Shown: piece by piece, positions 40,601-63,052 of the stretch
Layout: every line of letters begins with the position of its first letter
How positions within the stretch are numbered: the first letter of the stretch is position 1
NCBI GenBank assembly: GCA_040755755.1
Contig: JBFLZW010000022.1
Span: 241,360-305,359 of the forward strand
DNA from: a bacterium
GTDB taxonomy: Bacteria; SZUA-182; DTGQ01
DNA length: 64,000 nt
Reading direction: 5' to 3'
Made by a program: the position numbers and the translations under genes
The notes under the pieces: model-generated
Seen by the model: the letters and a program-made list of their open reading frames with translations, nothing else
Told to the model about the DNA's origin: nothing
Databases searched by the model: none

Positions 40601-42847
40601 GTGAAAAACTCGAGAAAAACTCTTGCCTGGGGATTTATCATCAGCCTTTCGATCAGCCTGGCCATGATGGGACTCTATGTTGGACACCCCCGGTTCATGG
40701 AAGTCATTGAGCTGAAAGCATTCGACCTGCGTTTTCGCTGGCGGGGGTGCATTCCTCAAGGACCTGAAGTGGTCATTGCAGCCATAGACCAGAAAAGCAT
40801 TGATGAGCTGGGAAGATGGCCCTGGCCGCGCAGCAGAATGAAGCGCCTGGTCGATGAGCTGAAAGCTGCCGGAGCCAGGGTTGTGGCATTTGATATCACC
40901 TTTCCCTCCCCGGAGCTGGACCCGGAATCCTCTGAAGAGCATGCCCTTGAGCTGGTCAAAAATCTCAACAGCTCCGCTCTTTCGATTGACCGCCAGCAAA
41001 TCAGGAAGGCATTAAGCCGCCTTGACCCGGACCGGGATTTCAGCCTGGCCATTCGGAAAGCGGGCAATGTTATTCTGGGCATGTTTTTCTTCCTCTCTCC
41101 GCAGGAGGTACCGACCGGCAAGAGGCTGCGGCCTGCTCCGCCTTATCTTGTCTCGCAGCGCTATCCCCTGGTTCAGCAGTTGGGTCCCGTGGCTTCGGAC
41201 AGCCCCATCATCCCTCAAGGGTATGGCTATGAAGCCAGTCTGGACATGCTGGGGGCTTGCGCGCTGGCCAGCGGAGCTTTTAATATGTACCCGGATTTTG
41301 ACGGTACGATCCGCTGGGCTCCTCTGATTATTGCCTATCAGGGGAATTACTACCCTTCCCTGGATATGCAGGTTATCAGGCATTACTGGGGTTTGAACGG
41401 GGATTCCATACTGATCCAGATGGGTGAGCACGGAGTGGAAAGCCTGCTCCTCGAAGGCATGCCTGTTCCGGTCGATGCCAGAGGTCACCTGCTCATCAAT
41501 TACCGAGGGCCGCACGACACCTATGCCCACTACAGCATCTGCGATATCCTCTCCCGCCGGATTCCGGCTGAAAAACTCCGGGACAGGATTGTTCTGGTAG
41601 GAGCTACAGCAACCGGCATCTATGATATGCGCTATACCCCGTATAACATCATGGCCGGGGTGGAAATCCACGCCAATATCCTGGATAGCCTGCTCCATCT
41701 TGACTTTCTTTCACTTCCGGGGCATTATATTCTCGTAGATTTATGCCTGTTGCTGGCTGTCGGCCTGCTGCTCGGTTTCCTGCTCCCCCTTACCCGGCCC
41801 CTCGTGGGATTAAGTCTGACTGCGGCTCTTCTTGCCGGCTATACCGGGTTCAATCACTACCTGTTCTCTTCGCGGGGGATGTGGATCAATCTGGTCTATC
41901 CGGCTGCGGAAATAATGGTCATTTTTACCATGATTACCCTTTACCGATATGCCACCGAGGAGAAGGAGAAGAAAAGGATCAAAAACTCCTTTGAGCGCTA
42001 CCTCGCTCCCGACCTGGTTCAGGAGCTTATCCAGAATCCGCAGATGCTGAGCCTTGGAGGAGAAAAAAAGCTCCTGACGGTCCTTTTTTCCGATATCCGG
42101 GGGTTTACTTCCATCTCCGAGCGGCTGGAGCCGGAAGCCCTGGTGTCCTTTTTAAATGAATACATGAGCATCATGTCCACGATCATCCTGAATTACTCGG
42201 GATTTCTGGATAAGTTCATCGGCGATGCCATTATGGCTGTCTACTGTGCACCTATTGTCCGGGAAGATCATGCCCTGTTGGCCTGCCGGGCTGCCCTGGA
42301 CATGCGAACAGCCCTGGCCGGAATCAATCGGAATCTGCATCAGAAGAATTTTCCGCAGATAAAAATCGGCATCGGCATCAATTCCGGTGAAATGATCGTC
42401 GGCAATATGGGTTCCAGGGAACGGATGGATTATACGGTCCTGGGGGATAATGTCAACCTGGCCTCGCGGCTGGAAGGAATTACCAAGGTTTATGGGGTGG
42501 ATGTGGTAATCAGCGAGCACACCTGTCAGCTTGTCCGGGATGAATTTGTCGTCCGGGAGCTTGATATGGTCCGGGTGAAAGGAAAAACGCAGCCGGTGAA
42601 AATATTTGAGCTTATGGGCAGGAAGGAAGAAGCGGCCCATTATGAACCTCTGCTGCGAAGCTTTGCCGAAGGGCTCAGGGTTTACCGGAATCAGCGGTGG
42701 GAGGAAGGGCTCAGGAAGTTTCAGAAGGTTTTGGAGATTTGCCCCTCCGATGGGCCCTCGAAATACTATCTTGACCGCTGCCGTCAATACCTGCATTCTC
42801 CTCCAGTGCCTGACTGGGATGGCGTACTTACCCTGACGGCTAAATAA
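40601..42847 (+). CDS. CHASE2-domain class III adenylate cyclase
   Basis: A 748-residue membrane enzyme. A first membrane segment (about 10-28) is followed by an extracytoplasmic CHASE2 sensor (about 30-340), three C-terminal membrane helices (about 360-445) and a class III cyclase domain (about 480-670). It has the metal-binding Asp of 'FSDIRGFTSI' (about 497) and of 'FIGDAIMAVY' (about 541), the Lys of 'DKFIGD' and the Arg of 'NLASRLEG'. A Lys/Asp substrate pair fits ATP. GTG start after GGGGGGTGA. It probably turns an external signal into cAMP; no CRP-like gene is in the window. Confidence 0.9.
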   Translation: MKNSRKTLAWGFIISLSISLAMMGLYVGHPRFMEVIELKAFDLRFRWRGCIPQGPEVVIAAIDQKSIDELGRWPWPRSRMKRLVDELKAAGARVVAFDITFPSPELDPESSEEHALELVKNLNSSALSIDRQQIRKALSRLDPDRDFSLAIRKAGNVILGMFFFLSPQEVPTGKRLRPAPPYLVSQRYPLVQQLGPVASDSPIIPQGYGYEASLDMLGACALASGAFNMYPDFDGTIRWAPLIIAYQGNYYPSLDMQVIRHYWGLNGDSILIQMGEHGVESLLLEGMPVPVDARGHLLINYRGPHDTYAHYSICDILSRRIPAEKLRDRIVLVGATATGIYDMRYTPYNIMAGVEIHANILDSLLHLDFLSLPGHYILVDLCLLLAVGLLLGFLLPLTRPLVGLSLTAALLAGYTGFNHYLFSSRGMWINLVYPAAEIMVIFTMITLYRYATEEKEKKRIKNSFERYLAPDLVQELIQNPQMLSLGGEKKLLTVLFSDIRGFTSISERLEPEALVSFLNEYMSIMSTIILNYSGFLDKFIGDAIMAVYCAPIVREDHALLACRAALDMRTALAGINRNLHQKNFPQIKIGIGINSGEMIVGNMGSRERMDYTVLGDNVNLASRLEGITKVYGVDVVISEHTCQLVRDEFVVRELDMVRVKGKTQPVKIFELMGRKEEAAHYEPLLRSFAEGLRVYRNQRWEEGLRKFQKVLEICPSDGPSKYYLDRCRQYLHSPPVPDWDGVLTLTAK

Positions 42848-50298: not shown

Positions 50299-50388
50299 AT
50301 AATAACCTGCTTATTCGCTTTTCTCTGTGCCTCTGTGTCTCTGTGGTGTCCTTGTGGACAAGACACCCCTATAGTTCAAAAATTGATC

Positions 50389-53226
50389 ATGGATAAGAAG
50401 CCAAAAAAAATATTAGAAAGCATCCTGCTGCCTTTCATTCTGGTGTTTCTCACGATTTTTTTGACTCATATGGGTATGCAAACCCAATTTATCGACCAGG
50501 AACTGGATAAGCTGACCAGTAACAGTATGGTAGCTCAGATGCAATTCATCAGGAATCATTTCCTGACTGACGAGGTGCGAAATCCGCTCCTGGTTCTCCA
50601 ATATGTGGCTGATTCTATCTTTCCGGGCATTCTGCACGGCGCATCCGGGGATCAAAATTTTTTTTCACCCTACTTGAAGAGGCTGAGAAACGATCTGAAC
50701 CTGGACCATATAGCTCTCTATGACTTGGAGGGGAAAATACTGGACCAGAAAGTATTATCTTCACATTATGAAAAAGCGGACCTGACCGAATTCCAGAATC
50801 TGATCAAACAGGGAAAGGTTACCAGGGAGATTTTTGGATTTGATAAAGCCGACCAGGGTCTGGTCTTGAAAATAATTTTTCCCGTTCACGGTTTCCAGGA
50901 GGAGACTGTGGGATACCTGTCAGCCATCCGCTCCCTGGGCAGCCATTTTTTTCAGAAAATCCAGCAGCCTTCCAATCTGGACATCCTGCTCTTCAAAGAT
51001 GAGCATGCTGTTTTCAGTACCATTCCTGCCAAAACAGGTGAGCCGCTTTCTATCCCTCCCGAGATTCAAAAAAAGGTTCTCAAGGCCAATGAAGAATCAC
51101 AGCAATCAGTTGAACGTATTTTTATCTTCGGCACCCAATATTATGCTGTTTCTTTTCCTTTCCAAAACCTGCGGGGGAAGACCGTAGGAACTCTCATGCT
51201 GGTAGCCGGTCTGGATGCAAAAGCGCAAAGCCTGAAAAAGATTGTCCTGTATCTCCTGTGGGCTGGCGTGATCGGGATCATCTTGCTGATATCTTTTGGA
51301 TTTCTCATCAGCAAGGGGATAACTACCCCGCTTGAAAGACTCATCCAGGCCACACACCGGGTATCAGCCGGAGACCTGAATACCAGAGCCAGGATACAGT
51401 CTCACCGGGAGCTCATTACTTTGTCACAGGCATTCAATACCATGACTGAAAATTTGCAGCATACGCTGGTTTCCAAAAACTATTTCCATACTATTATTGA
51501 TACCATCAATGACCTTCTGATCATTATTTCTCCTGAACAGACTATCACCTTTGTCAACCAGGCAACTCTGCGGGTGTTAGGGTACGATAGAGCGGAATTG
51601 ATCGGCAAACCGATTGGTTTTCTTTTCCACAAGGATTACCCTGTGAGAGAAATGGATCTCAATGTGCTCGCTCAACAGGGAACGATCGAAGACTATTCCT
51701 GCGGCCTGGTAACGAAATCGGGTGAATCCATCCCGGTGAGCTTTTCGGGATGGCCTATGCTGGATGAACAAAAGCGGCTTTCGGAAATCGTCGGCATTGC
51801 CCGGGATATCCGGGAAAAAGCGGAGGCTGAGCGAAAGATCAAAGAGGAGCGTGATAAATTGAATACCCTGATCAATACGATCAATGATCTTATTTTTATC
51901 CGTGACTCTCAGGGGAAGGTGATCTTTATCAGCCATGCTGTGCAGGACATCCTCGGCTACTCTCCACAGGAGTTTACCAGCCTGCCCTATGAGGCGGTTC
52001 TCAGCTCGAATCCGATTAACCAGAGTTTTCTGGAATCACCTACCCGCCTGTGCACCAGGGGGGAAGATGTTGAGCCCTATTGGACTGAATTTCTGGCCCG
52101 CGATGGCAAGCGGCTTATCCTGGAGATCAATGAAGCCCCTTTACTGGGGAAAAAGGGAGAAGTCATCCAGATCATGGGCGTTGGCCGGGACATTTCAGAG
52201 AGAAAAAAATTGGAAGAGCAGTTGCGGGAGTGGCAGGAAAAACAGGCAAAAATGTCCGATGAAACCTACCGGTTCGGCAATATTATCGGCAAGAGCCGGA
52301 AGATGCAGGAAATCTATGAATTAATCAAAATAGTTTCCCAAAGTAATAGTACTGTTTTGATCCAGGGGGAAAGCGGAACCGGAAAGGAGTTAATCGCTCA
52401 GGCCATTCACTGTCAGAGCCCCCGCCGGGATCATCCCTTCATCGAGGTGACCTGTTCGGTGTTGTCTGAGCAATTGCTGGAAAGTGAGTTGTTCGGGCAT
52501 GTCAAAGGCGCTTTCACCGGCGCTATCGCGGATAAGCCCGGTCGGTTCGAGCAGGCGGACGGAGGGACCATTTTTCTCGATGAGATAGGCGAGGTCAGCC
52601 TGAACGAGCAGGTTAAGTTGCTCCGTGTTGTCCAGGAGCGGGAGGTTGTGCGTGTGGGGGGAAATAAACGGATTAAAGTCAATGTCCGGATCATTGCCGC
52701 CACCAATAAAAATTTAAAAGAAGCCGTAGCTCAGGGTTCTTTCCGGGAAGATCTCTACTACCGGCTGAATGTAGTGCCGGTCCTGGTACCGCCGCTACGG
52801 GAGAGGAAAGAGGATTTACCGCTTATGGTGAATCATTTCATTCAGAAGATGAATAAGAAAATCGGCAAGGAGATTACCGGCATTTCCCAGAAGGCCCTGA
52901 ACATCCTGTGGAAAGAGGACTGGCCGGGAAACGTCCGTCAGTTGGAAAACACTATCGAGTATGCTGTGGTCCGCTGCCGGGATCAGGAAATAAAGGTGAG
53001 GGATCTTCCATCGGATATCCATGGCATCCACTCAGAGGATACCACCTCGGTGCAGGATCTTCTGGCCAACGTCCAGAAATCAGCGCTGATCGATGTTCTG
53101 GAGGACTGTCAATGGAACATGACCCAGGCAGCTCAAAAATTAAACATCAGCCGGACCACGCTCTGGCGAAAGATACGCAAGTACGATGTGGCCAAACCCG
53201 ATAACCTTGGGTCCGCTCTCAGTTAG
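50389..53226 (+). CDS. membrane-bound sigma-54-dependent regulator (sensor, HAMP, PAS-PAS, AAA+, Fis HTH)
   Basis: A 945-residue protein. A membrane helix (about 8-28), an extracytoplasmic sensor domain (about 30-285), a second helix (about 290-310), HAMP (about 310-365), two PAS domains (about 375-480 and 490-615), the AAA+ sigma-54 interaction domain with Walker A GESGTGKEL (about 660) and GAFTGA (707-712), and a Fis-type helix-turn-helix at the end ('MTQAAQKLNISRTTLWRKI'). Joining an extracellular sensor directly to a sigma-54 activator bypasses a kinase. The ATG at 50389 is preferred over an upstream start that reads through a repeat. A -24/-12 promoter lies 41 bases past its stop. Confidence 0.88.
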   Translation: MDKKPKKILESILLPFILVFLTIFLTHMGMQTQFIDQELDKLTSNSMVAQMQFIRNHFLTDEVRNPLLVLQYVADSIFPGILHGASGDQNFFSPYLKRLRNDLNLDHIALYDLEGKILDQKVLSSHYEKADLTEFQNLIKQGKVTREIFGFDKADQGLVLKIIFPVHGFQEETVGYLSAIRSLGSHFFQKIQQPSNLDILLFKDEHAVFSTIPAKTGEPLSIPPEIQKKVLKANEESQQSVERIFIFGTQYYAVSFPFQNLRGKTVGTLMLVAGLDAKAQSLKKIVLYLLWAGVIGIILLISFGFLISKGITTPLERLIQATHRVSAGDLNTRARIQSHRELITLSQAFNTMTENLQHTLVSKNYFHTIIDTINDLLIIISPEQTITFVNQATLRVLGYDRAELIGKPIGFLFHKDYPVREMDLNVLAQQGTIEDYSCGLVTKSGESIPVSFSGWPMLDEQKRLSEIVGIARDIREKAEAERKIKEERDKLNTLINTINDLIFIRDSQGKVIFISHAVQDILGYSPQEFTSLPYEAVLSSNPINQSFLESPTRLCTRGEDVEPYWTEFLARDGKRLILEINEAPLLGKKGEVIQIMGVGRDISERKKLEEQLREWQEKQAKMSDETYRFGNIIGKSRKMQEIYELIKIVSQSNSTVLIQGESGTGKELIAQAIHCQSPRRDHPFIEVTCSVLSEQLLESELFGHVKGAFTGAIADKPGRFEQADGGTIFLDEIGEVSLNEQVKLLRVVQEREVVRVGGNKRIKVNVRIIAATNKNLKEAVAQGSFREDLYYRLNVVPVLVPPLRERKEDLPLMVNHFIQKMNKKIGKEITGISQKALNILWKEDWPGNVRQLENTIEYAVVRCRDQEIKVRDLPSDIHGIHSEDTTSVQDLLANVQKSALIDVLEDCQWNMTQAAQKLNISRTTLWRKIRKYDVAKPDNLGSALS

Positions 53227-56252: not shown

Positions 56253-57527
56253 TTATGCTGATGCGATTCCTCTCTTGTTTGGAATCAATATCGGCTTATT
56301 GAGCATCCTCTTTTGTCCTCTCCTGTTATCCAATTCAACAGCCTGGACAAATCGCTTTTGAAAATCCGGTATGGCGGCTATCACCCTGACCCAGGCTGAC
56401 AGCATGGGAATGCCCGCAGGATCTTCAGTGAATTCATGTATGCCCTTCTTGAGAGCCTCAAGGAACAGCTCGGTAGTCACAATTTCCTCATGACGGTCAT
56501 ATTTCAGCCCATTGAGCATGGCCAGGGCATTGAATTTTTCTATGGCGGCACGCGATTCCTGAATATAGGTCATAAGGAGGGTTCGAAAAAATGAATCTGC
56601 CATGACAATACCATCCTGGCTGAGCACTCTGAAAAGGGTCTGGGTAATCTCATTGGCCATTCGGATAAGTCCGGTGTGCTGCTCCTCTTTGCTGACTTCC
56701 TGATGTTTATGGTCATAAGTTTGTACCAGGTCAACCTGGGCAACCCGATTGGTGGATGTTTTGGTATAGACTTCACTGAGCATGGAAATTTCGAGGCCCC
56801 AGGTCGGCGATATGCGAATGCTGCGGGCGAGACTTGCCAAAAAGGCGAACTCCCCGGAAAGAGGGTAGCGGAAACTATCGAGGTATTCGAGAAAGGAATT
56901 GTATTTTAAAATTTTTTTCAGTGACCGTATGAGAGGGGTATAAAAAAGCCGGGTTACTCTTCCGTAAAATTTATCATGAGCCCGTGCGTAATAGCCTTTG
57001 CTGAACTCGTAGTCCAGGGCGGGGTGGATGATCGGGTAAAGAAGCCGTGCCAGAAGCTCTCTTCTATAGTTGAGAATATCGGTATCGTGCAATCCTATGG
57101 CATAGACTTCCCGGTCAGCGAGGATATATCCCAGGGTCATCCATACCGATCTCCCCTTGCCGGGATTCTCGATCCTGAAATCCGCGTGCCGTAATTCTTC
57201 ATACAGGGACTGCATCCGGGGACCATCATGCCATATTACCTTTACCGTAGTCGGAAGCTCGCTCATGATTTCTTTTACTCTTTTGAATTCATCCTCACCG
57301 GCCCGGTCAAGAGAAAGCACTATTTGAGAAAGATAATCGACCTGCTTGAGCTCTGCGATAATTCCCGGCATGGCCGGGCCTTCAAATTCCGAGTAGAGCG
57401 CGGGAAGCAGAAGTACCATAGCTCTTTTTTGACTGAATTGCCGCAGCTCATCCTCGATTTCTTCAACCGGTCTTCTGGTGATATCCTGCAAGGTGGCAAT
57501 GGAACCGTTCTGGAAATAGTCTGACAT
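56253..57527 (-). CDS. GT-A glycosyltransferase related to glucosyl-3-phosphoglycerate synthase
   Basis: A 424-residue cytoplasmic protein. DTD at 148-150 (in GLHDTDILNY) is the metal/nucleotide-sugar site, with GKGRS (123-127), a 'YPLSGEFAFL' block and 'PTWGLEISML' (all typical of the GpgS/GT81-like group and its relatives). GpgS moves glucose from NDP-glucose to 3-phosphoglycerate. This protein is longer than GpgS and has a second helical domain. It starts 3 bases after the fusion gene ends, so it belongs to the same operon. Exact sugar and acceptor are not readable; it may add the second sugar. Confidence 0.75.
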   Translation of the reverse strand: MSDYFQNGSIATLQDITRRPVEEIEDELRQFSQKRAMVLLLPALYSEFEGPAMPGIIAELKQVDYLSQIVLSLDRAGEDEFKRVKEIMSELPTTVKVIWHDGPRMQSLYEELRHADFRIENPGKGRSVWMTLGYILADREVYAIGLHDTDILNYRRELLARLLYPIIHPALDYEFSKGYYARAHDKFYGRVTRLFYTPLIRSLKKILKYNSFLEYLDSFRYPLSGEFAFLASLARSIRISPTWGLEISMLSEVYTKTSTNRVAQVDLVQTYDHKHQEVSKEEQHTGLIRMANEITQTLFRVLSQDGIVMADSFFRTLLMTYIQESRAAIEKFNALAMLNGLKYDRHEEIVTTELFLEALKKGIHEFTEDPAGIPMLSAWVRVIAAIPDFQKRFVQAVELDNRRGQKRMLNKPILIPNKRGIASA

Positions 57528-57530
57528 GTT

Positions 57531-60500
57531 CTAATCCTCAGTGGTTGATGGAGCATCACTGTCATGGCATCCTGCGACCATATGGCGGTCTCGGTAGGCT
57601 TGGATTGTGGCAATCGGCGGCCTTTCCATATCGGTAATGACACTCTCGTTGAGTGAGTGGCGATGATGATTATGGACGATAAGCTTCATCGAACGGTTGA
57701 GCTCCGTGCTCAGTTGCACTTTCTTTTCTGCTTCGAGACGGCAGATAATCACCTGGGTGATAGCGAATGCCATTCGGCTGAGATCAGCCAGTGATTTATT
57801 GCGGTGAACACGCTCATCGAGGTTCACTTGACCGATAGCCGACAGTCCAAAATTGGACAATATATCGATCAGAATACCGATTTCAACACCATAGCCGGTG
57901 AAAAATGGTATGGATTCGAGGGCTCGACGTCGGCCGGCGTATTCACCACTCAATGGCTGGATCAAGCCTGAGAGCTCCGGGAAAAACAGGTTTATCAGTG
58001 GTCTGGCTGTCAATTCTGTCACGCGGCCTCCCCCTGTGTGGTGGAGGATTCCGTCAATGCATATGGGCCGGTGATAAAAGCCTTTGACATACTGCAATTT
58101 CGGTTCTCGCAATAATGGGCCGACGAGACCATAAACGAACTTGGGATCCATATTGGAAATATCGGTATCGACCCAGGCGATGATATCTCCTTTCAGGACA
58201 TGCAGGCTCTTCCATAACGCCTCGCCCTTGCCTCGATAGCTGGCTGCCTCCGGCAGTATCTCGCTGTGCTGATAGACGGGAACGCCAAGGCTCTCGGCTA
58301 TTTTTACGGTATCGTCATGTGAACCGCTGTCAATGACTGCGATTTCGTCAAGGAGCCGAACCCGGTCCATCAGCCTGCTCTTGATGGTCTCGATGACCTG
58401 GCCGATAGTCTCTGCTTCATTCAGGGTTGGCAGCCCAAGGCTGATGGAAAGTCCCTGTCGTTGCTTGAGGGCGACAAGCTCCTCCAGGTTCGAAAACTCG
58501 GAGTGTTCAAACGTGTTCTCGGCAAACCAGCGATCGACAATGACACCCACCGGTAATTCGGGAACCACAAAGGATGCCGGATCGATAGCCTGGCGTGTCT
58601 TGACCGCAATCAGTGTGGCCTCGCATTTCTTGGCAATTGCCTCGGGAACAGCACCAAGGGCAAATCCACCTGCCTCTTGAGGGCCAGCCGATACACCCAT
58701 GACCACCACCTCATGGTCCTTTGTTTGGGCCAGAATTCCTTCTTCGAGTGATTTCACCTCGATAGATCGTACCTCAACCCCATCAAGGTCGGGTAATGAA
58801 GTAAGAAATTTTTCGAATGACTTCAGGTCGGATGCCCGCCGTTGCGGATTACCGATCAGGTCCACGTGCAGGAGGGTCACTGAACAGCCGTAGTAACTGG
58901 CAAGCCGAGTGGCGATTTGCATTGCCAGATGCGCATGAGGGCCACCACGGACAGGCACAAGGATACGCCTCCATGCCTGCTCACGTCCCTGCCGTATTAT
59001 GGCCAGATTGCAGGGCAACTCGCTTATGAGGCTGGCGAATGGAGTACCGAAGACCGGTGCTTCTTTATTTTCCTGGTTTGGCCAGCCAAGGACTACCAAC
59101 TCAGGTTGCTCTTCGAGGACAACGTCTCTGATGCCTTCGTATGCGTGGCGTGCGATGCGAACAGAAGGGCAGAACTCGATTGAGCTCGGACTCAAATCGG
59201 AAATACGCTGCAATAGACGCCGCTGACGACGGGCCAGGATCGTTCCTTCAGAGAGACTTCGATGTTCAGGAATCTCGACCACACCCAAAGCAACGGTCTG
59301 TCCTTGGGTGTCGCCAATCATGCTCGATGCGATCTTGACCAGATTGCCGGCAGTTCGCGGATTTGCAACCGGCACCAAAATAGTGTACGGATGCTTTGGC
59401 TGATCAGGGGTGGGGAGAGGGGCAGGGTGAGGGAAAGCTTTTAGGACCGCTTGGGAAGCTGTATAACTAAAATGGGAATTTTTTCCAGATAGAGTTGCCA
59501 GGCGATTCAGCAGATGAGGCTTCTGGTGCTCGAATGACTTGGCCTGCTGCTCGATGACCTGCTCGGCCTGCTCAATCTCCATATCACCTGTCTCGATTAC
59601 GAACGAGGCAAGCCGGCCAAAGTGCAGAGGAGTAAGCGCCTCGATGAGATTCGTCCGCTGATCCGCAGGCTTGACCAGGTAAGAACTAAGAAAATCATAG
59701 ACAACTTCAGCCCATAGTTCGGCGGAGAATCCAGCCTCCGGATCCTTTTGGCGGCTGGCATCGAACACCCGCTCTGCGGCAGAAGGGCAAAGAACCTGCT
59801 GCCACTGATCAATGAATTTCGCTGCACCGAGACAAAAACGTTCCTGGAGAGTCCGGCTATCAACCTTGATAGGCTTGGGCTCAACAGGCCGCTGAAAACC
59901 GTAATCGGAAACAGAATGGCTGGACCTGATGTCTGTCCAATACTTCTGAAACGTGCCTGCCAGGTTGAAAAGTGTATTGACAACTTGATGGAACATGGGT
60001 CCCAGGTCGGCAGCAGGATCTTTAACATCATGCACCTTGGCACCAAGGCGAGCCTGGACGATGGAAAAACCTTCGGTAATGGCCAGCGTCGTCAGCCAGA
60101 TGTCAATGCCGAATCGTGCCACATCGTCGTCCCAAAGCGGACTTTCCAGGATCGAGGCAATGAAGTCATCGCTGAGGCCAAAATCACCCCCAATCGGCTG
60201 GCGGATGCGCCAGCCGTAAAGCGCTCGTGTAAGCGGGTAGGCAATGTTATTGGTAATAGTTCCGTCGTATTTATGTCGTGAGTAGAGCGGTGCCACATAG
60301 TCATAACCACCTTTCAGGATGGGGCCGGCGAGAAGCTCGATCCACTCAGGGCCTATACTGCGCAGGTCGGAGTCGACAATTACACAGGCTTTAACCTTGA
60401 GCCGTCGGGCTATTTCGAAGATGGCCCGTACGGCCGAGCCTTTGCCGGGTGTGCCGCTATAGGTAAACGTCAGTCGATGAATACCGCGAGCGGCAGGAGA

Positions 60501-60761
60501 AAGCACCACTTTCTCGACATAATCCGGAGACGCTGTACTCAACACCAGCTCTCGGGTCGCATCCTGTGATCCTCCGTCAGAGTTCACGAGGACAGAGCGA
60601 AGTTCGGGGAAATACTGACCCAGCCCGGCGCTGGCAGCCTTTACCACATGGGCGATAGTTTCTCCGCTTCTGAAGCTGGGTATCCCCACCATAATATCTG
60701 CGCTGCCAACCTTATCCAGGCGGTCAAGTATGTCAGGGCTCAAATGTGTTTTATTTTCCAT
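57531..60761 (-). CDS. fusion: MGS-like glycosyltransferase, two universal stress protein domains, glucosyl-3-phosphoglycerate synthase
   Basis: A 1076-residue cytoplasmic protein. Residues about 20-300 resemble mannosylglycerate synthase (GT78-like): SDGGSQDAT near 60, VDSD near 128, QPIGGDFG and GIDIWLT. A helical linker leads to two universal stress protein domains (about 456-593 beginning YTILVPVAN, and 594-735 beginning RRILVPVRGG). Residues about 770-1050 match GpgS: PTLNEAETIG, IDSGSHDDTV, VDTD near 866, LSGEYAGRR and FTGYGVEIG. Together they could make glucosyl-3-phosphoglycerate and add mannose, with the USP domains (often ATP- or stress-related) as a possible control module. I know of no characterised protein with this order. 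Operon with glycerate kinase upstream (18 bases) and a glycosyltransferase downstream (3 bases). Confidence 0.82.
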   Translation of the reverse strand: MENKTHLSPDILDRLDKVGSADIMVGIPSFRSGETIAHVVKAASAGLGQYFPELRSVLVNSDGGSQDATRELVLSTASPDYVEKVVLSPAARGIHRLTFTYSGTPGKGSAVRAIFEIARRLKVKACVIVDSDLRSIGPEWIELLAGPILKGGYDYVAPLYSRHKYDGTITNNIAYPLTRALYGWRIRQPIGGDFGLSDDFIASILESPLWDDDVARFGIDIWLTTLAITEGFSIVQARLGAKVHDVKDPAADLGPMFHQVVNTLFNLAGTFQKYWTDIRSSHSVSDYGFQRPVEPKPIKVDSRTLQERFCLGAAKFIDQWQQVLCPSAAERVFDASRQKDPEAGFSAELWAEVVYDFLSSYLVKPADQRTNLIEALTPLHFGRLASFVIETGDMEIEQAEQVIEQQAKSFEHQKPHLLNRLATLSGKNSHFSYTASQAVLKAFPHPAPLPTPDQPKHPYTILVPVANPRTAGNLVKIASSMIGDTQGQTVALGVVEIPEHRSLSEGTILARRQRRLLQRISDLSPSSIEFCPSVRIARHAYEGIRDVVLEEQPELVVLGWPNQENKEAPVFGTPFASLISELPCNLAIIRQGREQAWRRILVPVRGGPHAHLAMQIATRLASYYGCSVTLLHVDLIGNPQRRASDLKSFEKFLTSLPDLDGVEVRSIEVKSLEEGILAQTKDHEVVVMGVSAGPQEAGGFALGAVPEAIAKKCEATLIAVKTRQAIDPASFVVPELPVGVIVDRWFAENTFEHSEFSNLEELVALKQRQGLSISLGLPTLNEAETIGQVIETIKSRLMDRVRLLDEIAVIDSGSHDDTVKIAESLGVPVYQHSEILPEAASYRGKGEALWKSLHVLKGDIIAWVDTDISNMDPKFVYGLVGPLLREPKLQYVKGFYHRPICIDGILHHTGGGRVTELTARPLINLFFPELSGLIQPLSGEYAGRRRALESIPFFTGYGVEIGILIDILSNFGLSAIGQVNLDERVHRNKSLADLSRMAFAITQVIICRLEAEKKVQLSTELNRSMKLIVHNHHRHSLNESVITDMERPPIATIQAYRDRHMVAGCHDSDAPSTTED

Positions 60762-60779
60762 TCAGCACCTCATCCTCAG

Positions 60780-62084
60780 CTAGGTAATTACCATGATCGT
60801 AAGATCCATAACATTAGTCCCTGTAGGACCGGTTTTAATAAGGTCTTTTGTCTGCTTAAAGAAATTATAGGAATCGTTATTTTTTAAATACTCATCAATT
60901 CTCAGACCGAGGTCTTGAGCTTTCAAGTAACTTCTTGAGTCCACAATCGCTCCGGCTGCATCGGAATTGCCGTCTATCCCATCCGTCCCTGCACTCAGGA
61001 GGAAAATATTCTGCTCATCCCGTATCTCCTGCAAGGCGGACAGGCACAACTCCTGGTTCCTGCCGCCGGTGCCCCGTCCTTTCACCGTTACGGTTGTCTC
61101 ACCGCCAAAGAGCAGGCAGACCGGCCTTTCAAACGGATTTCCCGATTTTACAATCTCTTTCCCAAGGGAGATCAAGACCCTGGCAACTTCTCTGGCCTCT
61201 CCTTTCAGTTGAGAAGTCATGATAACCGCTTTCATTCCCTGTGCTTGTGCTTTTTCTTTGGCTCTCATCAAGAGCTGCAAGTTACTTCCGATAATGAAGT
61301 GCTCGATAACCTGTGCGGGGCGTTTCGGCGTGTCTTCTATTTCACCCTTCAGTCCTTTGTCGATAACCAGTTGAGCATTCTCCGGCAGAGAGGTGAGGAT
61401 GCCGGAGCGGGTGAGAAGGTCATATACATCGTTATAGCTCGAAGAATCACCGTAGAAAGGAGCTGAACCAATGGTTTCCAGATCATCGCCGATGACGTCG
61501 GAGATGACCAGAATCACTCCCTGAGCCCTGGTGAATTGGCCGAGCCTTCCACCTTTCACCATCGATACATGTTTTCTTACCCTGTTAACATCCTCAATGG
61601 GTACATTGCTCTCCAGCAATATCCTGGTAACTTTCTGCAAATCCGCTAACGTCAGAGGCGGCAGCGGTTTTTCCAGGAGTGCCGAGCTTCCACCGGATAG
61701 AGCATAAATAAAAAAGTCTCCGGAAGAGAGTCTTTCAAGGTGCTCAATAAGCATATCGGCTGCAATGAGGCTTTTTCCCCTGGGGACCGGATGGGAGCTT
61801 TCAAATACCTCGATATTTTCCGCGCAATAACCAGCATGATTGGAAACCACAAAACCGCCTGCGACTGGATAATCAATCACTTCATGCAGTGCCCTGACCA
61901 TTTCTCCAGAGGCTTTGCCGCTCCCGAAAAGATATATTCTGCGATAATCATGAAGATGATAGGTGTTTTTCCCGATTAGAAGGTCGCCATTTTGGTATTT
62001 GACTGAACTTTTGATTAAATTTTCCGGGAGAACCGCTTGAAGGGCATCCTGAAAAAGGGATATAATATCCTCTCGCATGGGCAT
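60780..62084 (-). CDS. glycerate 2-kinase (MOFRL/GckA family)
   Basis: A 434-residue cytoplasmic kinase: ALSGGSSALLEKPLPPLTL near 130, 'DVNRVRKHVSMVKGGRLG' near 160 and the C-terminal MOFRL block 'LLSAGTDGIDGNSDAAGA' near 370. The family phosphorylates glycerate, usually giving 2-phosphoglycerate. AGGAGA 7 bases before the ATG. First gene of the solute operon. It could recycle glycerate released when the solute is broken down, or supply phosphoglycerate after mutase action. Confidence 0.88.
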   Translation of the reverse strand: MPMREDIISLFQDALQAVLPENLIKSSVKYQNGDLLIGKNTYHLHDYRRIYLFGSGKASGEMVRALHEVIDYPVAGGFVVSNHAGYCAENIEVFESSHPVPRGKSLIAADMLIEHLERLSSGDFFIYALSGGSSALLEKPLPPLTLADLQKVTRILLESNVPIEDVNRVRKHVSMVKGGRLGQFTRAQGVILVISDVIGDDLETIGSAPFYGDSSSYNDVYDLLTRSGILTSLPENAQLVIDKGLKGEIEDTPKRPAQVIEHFIIGSNLQLLMRAKEKAQAQGMKAVIMTSQLKGEAREVARVLISLGKEIVKSGNPFERPVCLLFGGETTVTVKGRGTGGRNQELCLSALQEIRDEQNIFLLSAGTDGIDGNSDAAGAIVDSRSYLKAQDLGLRIDEYLKNNDSYNFFKQTKDLIKTGPTGTNVMDLTIMVIT

Positions 62085-62191
62085 GGTCCGTTCTCCTGAT
62101 TGTCCGTTGATGTATTCGATCTTATTGGATAAGGTCCTATTTGAGGCAATAAACTGATGACATTTTTTCAGGATAAGTTAACGGGAGAGAA

Positions 62192-63052
62192 ATGTCAACC
62201 TTTCACAGGGTAAAAAATAAACCGGCACCCGATCCTTTTCCGGTTATTATTACCGATTTGGACGGAACGCTTCTGGACCATCATACCTATTCCTTTGAAG
62301 AAGCCCGGCCGGCTCTGGAACTTATCCGGCAAAGAGGGATACCTCTCATCATGTGCAGCAGCAAAACAAGGGCCGAGATTGAAAAGATCAGAAAAAAGCT
62401 GAATAATGCAGATCCTTTTATCTCCGAGAACGGTGGCGGAGTCTTTGTTCCCGGCAACTATTTCTCCTTTCCCTTTTCTTTCGACCGGGAAAAGCATGGC
62501 TATAGCGTTATAGAGCTGGGAACCCGGTATGAAAAGCTGATTGAAGCCCTGAAGCGGATACAGGAAACGACAGGATTACCCCTGAAAGGCTTTTCCACAA
62601 TGAATACGGGGGAAGTCGCCGGATTGTGCGGTCTTTCCGTCGAAGATGCTTTCCTGGCCCGGCAAAGAGAATATGATGAACCTTTCCTGGTGGATGGTGG
62701 GACAGGCAGTGGTTTTCAGGAAGCGGAGAACACTATCTCTGAGGCTGTAAGGAAAGAAGGATTATTTCTTACCCGGGGAGGGAGGTTCTATCACCTGACA
62801 GGCCCCAGTGACAAGGGGAGAGCTGTCCGCATACTGCTGGAGCTGTTTCAACGCCAAAAGGGAAATATCTTCAGCATTGCACTCGGAGACAGCCGGAATG
62901 ATGCCCCGATGCTGAAGGAGGCTGATGTGGCTGTTTTGATTCAAAAAGAAGATGGTTCCTGTGAAGAGATAGAAGGATTAAGCGGTTTTCAATCCGATGC
63001 CCCAGGCCCCAGAGGCTGGAACAGGGCTATTTTGAGAATCCTGAAGGACTGA
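62192..63052 (+). CDS. mpgP: mannosyl-3-phosphoglycerate phosphatase-like HAD hydrolase
   Basis: A 286-residue HAD phosphatase of the IIB cap type: DLDGTLLDHH (Asp about 22, Asp 24), 'IMCSSKTRAEI' for motif II, Lys of 'SDKGRAV' and GDSRND for motif IV. The spacing and 'ENGGGVFVPGNYF' match mannosyl-3-phosphoglycerate phosphatases. It removes the phosphate from mannosyl- or glucosyl-3-phosphoglycerate to yield the solute. Divergent from the operon with a 107-base shared promoter region. GGGAGAG precedes the ATG. Confidence 0.85.
   Translation: MSTFHRVKNKPAPDPFPVIITDLDGTLLDHHTYSFEEARPALELIRQRGIPLIMCSSKTRAEIEKIRKKLNNADPFISENGGGVFVPGNYFSFPFSFDREKHGYSVIELGTRYEKLIEALKRIQETTGLPLKGFSTMNTGEVAGLCGLSVEDAFLARQREYDEPFLVDGGTGSGFQEAENTISEAVRKEGLFLTRGGRFYHLTGPSDKGRAVRILLELFQRQKGNIFSIALGDSRNDAPMLKEADVAVLIQKEDGSCEEIEGLSGFQSDAPGPRGWNRAILRILKD

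Follow-up and report, generated by a model that had tools for sequence, protein, structure and literature searches.

Why would a bacterium join two glycosyltransferases (GTs) and a pair of universal stress protein (USP) domains in one polypeptide, and what would such a protein make? The window (the whole stretch of 64,000 nucleotides that we analysed) encodes a protein of this kind, 1076 residues long, on its minus strand (57531-60761). Its domain order, read from the open reading frame and from domain searches and borne out by Pfam, NCBIfam and PDB matches, is an N-terminal GT-A domain that resembles glucosylglycerate synthase (Ggs) and mannosylglycerate synthase (MGS) and is called N-GT here (residues 1-425; 59487-60761), a proline-rich linker read directly from the sequence (residues ~426-450; 59412-59486), two USP domains with degenerate ATP motifs (residues 460-590 and ~597-725; 58992-59384 and 58587-58973) and a glucosyl-3-phosphoglycerate synthase (GpgS) domain of the actinobacterial type (residues ~735-1060; 57582-58559). 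The fusion gene is present in a single copy. It starts 18 bp after the stop codon of a MOFRL/DUF4147 glycerate kinase gene (glycerate 2-kinase family; 60780-62084, minus strand), and 3 bp separate its own stop codon from the next gene, which encodes 424 residues (56253-57527, minus strand). A HAD phosphatase of the MPGP/GpgP family (62192-63052, plus strand) is transcribed divergently and matches the MPGP model TIGR02461 with 251 bits, above the cut-off of 244. Both this arrangement, described in the first-pass annotation as an operon with glycerate kinase lying opposite a phosphatase, and the view of the region as a sugar-glycerate compatible-solute locus are supported. Upstream of the operon there is a promoter-like TTGACA-17-TATCCT sequence (62170-62198, minus strand) with 10 of 12 matches, the overall scan being near chance level. 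The upstream neighbours (50335-53226 and 40601-42847) include a sensor-type sigma-54 activator with dCache, PAS, AAA and Fis domains and a CHASE2 adenylate/guanylate cyclase.

The C-terminal domain gives the clearest assignment. Residues 742-1054 match the NCBIfam GpgS model NF010496 with 419 bits, well over the cut-off of 262, and the best PDB match of residues 735-1020 is the Rubrobacter xylanophilus MpgS/GpgS (3f1y; E 7e-72). The domain contains GKG (844-846), D865-T-D867, GGGRVTEL (910-917), PLSGE (936-940), the Glu in GYGVEIG (957-962) and H986. The active-site motifs and their roles have been described for Mycobacterium tuberculosis GpgS and Rhodothermus marinus MGS (PMC2581804), and we found these motifs in both GT domains of the fusion, so that both active sites are complete, and also in the downstream 424-residue protein. 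This downstream gene had been taken for a third GT. It is instead a second GpgS, of the archaeal/Persephonella type, that matches the archaeal GpgS model NF040724 along its whole length (E 4e-101; residues 5-402) and has intact PLSGE and DTD motifs. With 339 bits it stays below the strict NF040724 cut-off of 700, and it is predicted to work like GpgS although it falls outside that equivalog. The two halves of the fusion were modelled apart, as a joint alignment with single-domain relatives put GpgS onto N-GT, and the predicted model of the USP-USP-GpgS half was weak in its GpgS part (mean pLDDT 68); the GpgS assignment therefore rests on sequence. As a prediction from sequence, the earlier proposal that this domain forms glucosyl-3-phosphoglycerate (GPG) is supported.

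The N-GT is more difficult to place. It is a Pfam GT2 match, and by sequence it matches both GpgS and MGS structures only distantly. All the expected motifs are present: PGKG (105-108), D130-x-D132, I169-T170, QPIGGD (188-193), D220 and H244. In an alignment of 14 N-GT sequences the Lys, DxD, GG, Asp and His are invariant and the Ile-Thr nearly so. The AlphaFold model (mean pLDDT 87) superimposes on MGS from end to end, with the helical C-terminal part included (Z 34.5 for 358 residues), versus a Z of 20.8 over only 227 residues for GpgS, and Foldseek agrees with MGS as the fold match. MGS acts on free, unphosphorylated D-glycerate and prefers GDP-mannose as the donor, so the fold of N-GT does not fix its donor.

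The distribution of N-GT provides a second line of evidence. In our broad sample of 386 bacterial genomes, N-GT occurs in 40, and 32 of these 40 also have GpgS, which is found in 58 of the 386 genomes overall (p ~1e-23, with kinship among the 386 genomes ignored). Most of the Thermotogota genomes searched have N-GT, and only seven, which are Petrotoga-like, have an actinobacterial-type GpgS; the archaeal type is absent from the ten other Thermotogota genomes checked for it. In the genome taken as Thermotoga maritima MSB8 neither type of GpgS was found. There the gene order is a sugar ABC transporter, a GH38 gene, a GT4 gene, N-GT and an RpiR-like regulator, and the N-GT homolog, 41% identical to that of the window, is directly downstream of the GT4 gene, which we take to be a putative mggS. 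T. maritima MggS is reportedly active with GDP-mannose and glucosylglycerate (GG). As MggS needs GG, a GG-forming enzyme must exist in this genome. Petrotoga mobilis is said to have GpgS and MggA and also a second route through Ggs and MggS. The genome that we take for P. mobilis SJ95 has gpgS directly followed by a gene of 505 amino acids, presumably mggA. Elsewhere in this genome, at 0.75 Mb, there is a homolog of the GT4 gene of T. maritima, and N-GT maps to 0.07 Mb. With gpgS, mggA and the mggS homolog accounted for, N-GT is the remaining candidate for Ggs. By elimination we infer that N-GT is probably Ggs; the N-GT of the window is 40% identical to the P. mobilis gene assigned in this way.

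The gene neighbourhoods of the relatives count in favour of a GG locus. Among the best 80 named N-GT relatives, a glycerate kinase is nearby in 21 loci, and in about 26 N-GT has an MscS-like gene as its neighbour; the latter fits the role of a released osmolyte. Glycerate kinase, MPGP, archaeal-type GpgS and N-GT recur in various combinations (loci L084, L107, L092, L087, L264, L266, L277 and L280), and in L084 glycerate kinase, archaeal GpgS, MPGP and N-GT form one gene run. In Gallionellales-type genomes, MPGP and a MOFRL glycerate kinase form a single fused protein (710-737 amino acids; L289:1302-3494, L292:5726-7858, L294:2770-4965 and L298:5765-7978) beside N-GT and an archaeal-type GpgS.

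Other arrangements in the survey stand apart from these. ManC, a phosphomannomutase-family gene, N-GT, GpgS and a histidine phosphatase are found in one run in L078:7176-13500 and L079:4448-10338, which is likely a mannose-using variant of the pathway. In L204:6776-9742, an archaeal-type GpgS is joined to a GH13 alpha-amylase-family domain (988 amino acids, with MPGP upstream), and this single chain might both make glucosylglycerate and phosphorolyse it. Proteins of 1314-1335 amino acids with an N-GT-like N terminus and a trehalose-synthase-like GT4 C terminus are encoded at L213:294-4238, L214:8283-12269 and L215:1811-5818, and the N-GT-like part in L214 has lost the DxD.

Where does the fusion come from? 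In 29 Chloroflexota loci among the best 80 named N-GT relatives, a USP-USP-GpgS gene comes at most a few tens of bases after N-GT, often with a glycerate kinase following in turn, and in none of the 29 are the two genes fused. In a quick tree the N-GT of the window is the sister of the Chloroflexota N-GT clade (SH-aLRT 99), and with weaker support its GpgS domain falls near the USP-GpgS sequences in the GpgS tree. The window protein is a fused form of this gene pair. Another phylum also has USP-USP-GpgS genes that do not include N-GT. The architecture that the first-pass annotation had singled out was seen in its four-domain form only in the window; the 386 genomes, nine of the same phylum and three other phylum samples contained no second example, and it is as the unfused pair that the combination recurs. 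Among the other long open frames considered as fusions, N-GT was not recognised upstream in the 1193-residue frame of G571, it lay in another frame in the 1403-residue frame of L246, and the 868-residue frame of G102 consists of two separate genes. Fusions in the reverse order, GpgS-N-GT without USP (733-755 amino acids), are found in three genomes of one family, f25 (L037:7438-9642, L077:6866-9133 and L081:7270-9471). They are placed elsewhere in both trees and therefore arose independently. An MscS-like gene follows the fusion in L037.

As the window holds the sole fused example found, from one assembly, and as the 29 Chloroflexota loci carry these two genes separately, with no more than a few tens of bases between them, a sequencing or assembly error that joined two adjacent genes has to be considered. 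We regard such an error as very improbable, since the proline-rich linker of about 25 codons is open, with neither a stop codon nor a start codon with a visible Shine-Dalgarno sequence, the contig is 305 kb long and fusions of this sort do arise, as the reversed one in another family demonstrates. The plain reading of such a linker is a single polypeptide.

What, then, does the protein make? The explanation that we favour, with confidence somewhat above even, is that it is a Ggs-USP-USP-GpgS fusion that makes GG both from glycerate and from 3-phosphoglycerate. The N-GT would act as Ggs and use a nucleotide-activated glucose (probably ADP-glucose) to glucosylate D-glycerate directly, and the C-terminal GpgS would transfer glucose to 3-phosphoglycerate, after which the neighbouring MPGP-type phosphatase would strip the phosphate from the product. 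The stand-alone archaeal-type GpgS would duplicate the 3-phosphoglycerate route, and the glycerate kinase would connect the pools of glycerate and phosphoglycerate. The domains, the intact motifs of the active sites, the order of the genes and the recurrence of the set are seen in sequence or fold, and what N-GT takes as donor and acceptor, what the locus produces and what the USPs do are inferred. Fusions more usually join enzymes of consecutive steps than enzymes that share a product, and this counts against a two-route protein. A chain of consecutive steps, in which N-GT follows GpgS and extends GPG or GG by another sugar (glucose or mannose) so that a diglucosylglycerate- or mannosylglucosylglycerate (MGG)-type solute is channelled within one polypeptide, would agree with the strong co-occurrence of N-GT and GpgS, with the two fusions that arose independently and have their domains in opposite orders, with the coupled N-GT/GpgS gene pairs and with the ManC and phosphomannomutase-family genes beside N-GT-GpgS in L078 and L079. 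From the latter genes, mannose may be used in some relatives. We nevertheless consider such chaining unlikely, because complete Thermotogota genomes have N-GT and neither type of GpgS, because the fold of N-GT is that of a glycerate-acting enzyme and because the putative mannosyl-extending enzymes are of another kind. The genes that we take to be the known MGG enzymes MggA and MggS are GT4-like, and at E 0.001 the genome of the window (97.6% complete) contains no homolog of either. For these reasons the proposals that N-GT adds mannose to GPG and that the product is MGG find no support.

If N-GT were a true MGS, making mannosylglycerate (MG) from GDP-mannose and D-glycerate, the fusion would produce two solutes, MG and GG. 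The R. marinus enzyme is its best fold match, and the donor loop QPIGGD has the two glycines of PLGGE in MGS and not the PLSGE of GpgS (PMC2581804 for the motif logic). At the same time the identity to MGS is just 18-19%, and the Thermotoga N-GT adjoins the putative mggS, whose enzyme would take GG and not MG as the acceptor, so this appears less probable still than chaining. The glycerate-acting Ggs is favoured over mannose extension by the full-length MGS fold, by the occurrence of N-GT without GpgS and by its position next to the putative mggS. The product and the role of the first GT proposed in the first-pass annotation most likely do not hold, and its observation of the fusion itself stands.

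The USP pair had been thought to sense ATP. Pfam PF00582 matches two stretches (E 5.8e-14, 53 bits, above the cut-off), and the pair in all 29 relatives matches Pfam Usp as well. The canonical ATP motif G-2X-G-9X-G(S/T) is absent from the USP domains of the window, and none of the 29 pairs has a genuine motif in place, the few pattern matches being chance ones in glycine-rich, low-complexity loops; ATP sensing is accordingly not supported. In fold comparisons covering about 235-260 residues, the pair resembles the USP-like domain of cation-chloride cotransporters (3g40; Z 21) and the tandem USPs UspE and Rv2623 (Z 19), and ranks within about 2 Z units do not allow a choice between them. Other genomes have pairs of this general sort attached to amino acid permeases and to a Na+/H+ exchanger. 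The USP domain of KdpD is described as binding c-di-AMP (PMC4686210), a precedent for a nucleotide other than ATP. Our literature search returned no relevant paper linking GpgS and USP. Our guess is that the non-canonical pair probably serves in regulation or dimerisation. A more speculative and rather doubtful idea is that the whole protein is a self-contained osmolyte synthase with two entries (or with chaining of two sugars), in which USPs without the ATP motif, similar to those of cation-chloride cotransporters, sense ionic or nucleotide signals and set the flux.

The two-route explanation would mean that two routes to GG that are usually treated as alternatives are physically linked in one protein. 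Linkage of GpgS to USP domains is frequent among uncultured Chloroflexota and in one further phylum. The GT78-like N-GT family is large, being present in about one-tenth of the sampled bacterial genomes, and is named specifically by no Pfam or NCBIfam model; it is probably a glucosylglycerate synthase family.

Compared with known systems, the C-terminal domain resembles the GT81 enzymes (M. tuberculosis Rv1208 and the R. xylanophilus MpgS/GpgS) in its DxD, GGGRVTEL, PLSGE, Glu and His motifs and in passing the NCBIfam cut-off, but in the window it follows two USP domains and a further GT in the same chain. The N-GT shares with the R. marinus MGS (GT78; 2bo4) the full-length fold and the conserved Lys, DxD, Ile-Thr, GG, Asp and His positions, and differs from it in an identity of only ~18%. 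With the putative Ggs of the non-phosphorylating pathway in P. mobilis and in the T. maritima neighbourhood the identity is 40-41%, and those enzymes stand alone whereas that of the window is fused. The USP pair has the fold of UspE, Rv2623 and 3g40 without the canonical ATP motif. The closest counterpart of the whole protein is the Chloroflexota N-GT/USP-USP-GpgS pair, which has the same order and domains, in two genes there and in one polypeptide in the window.
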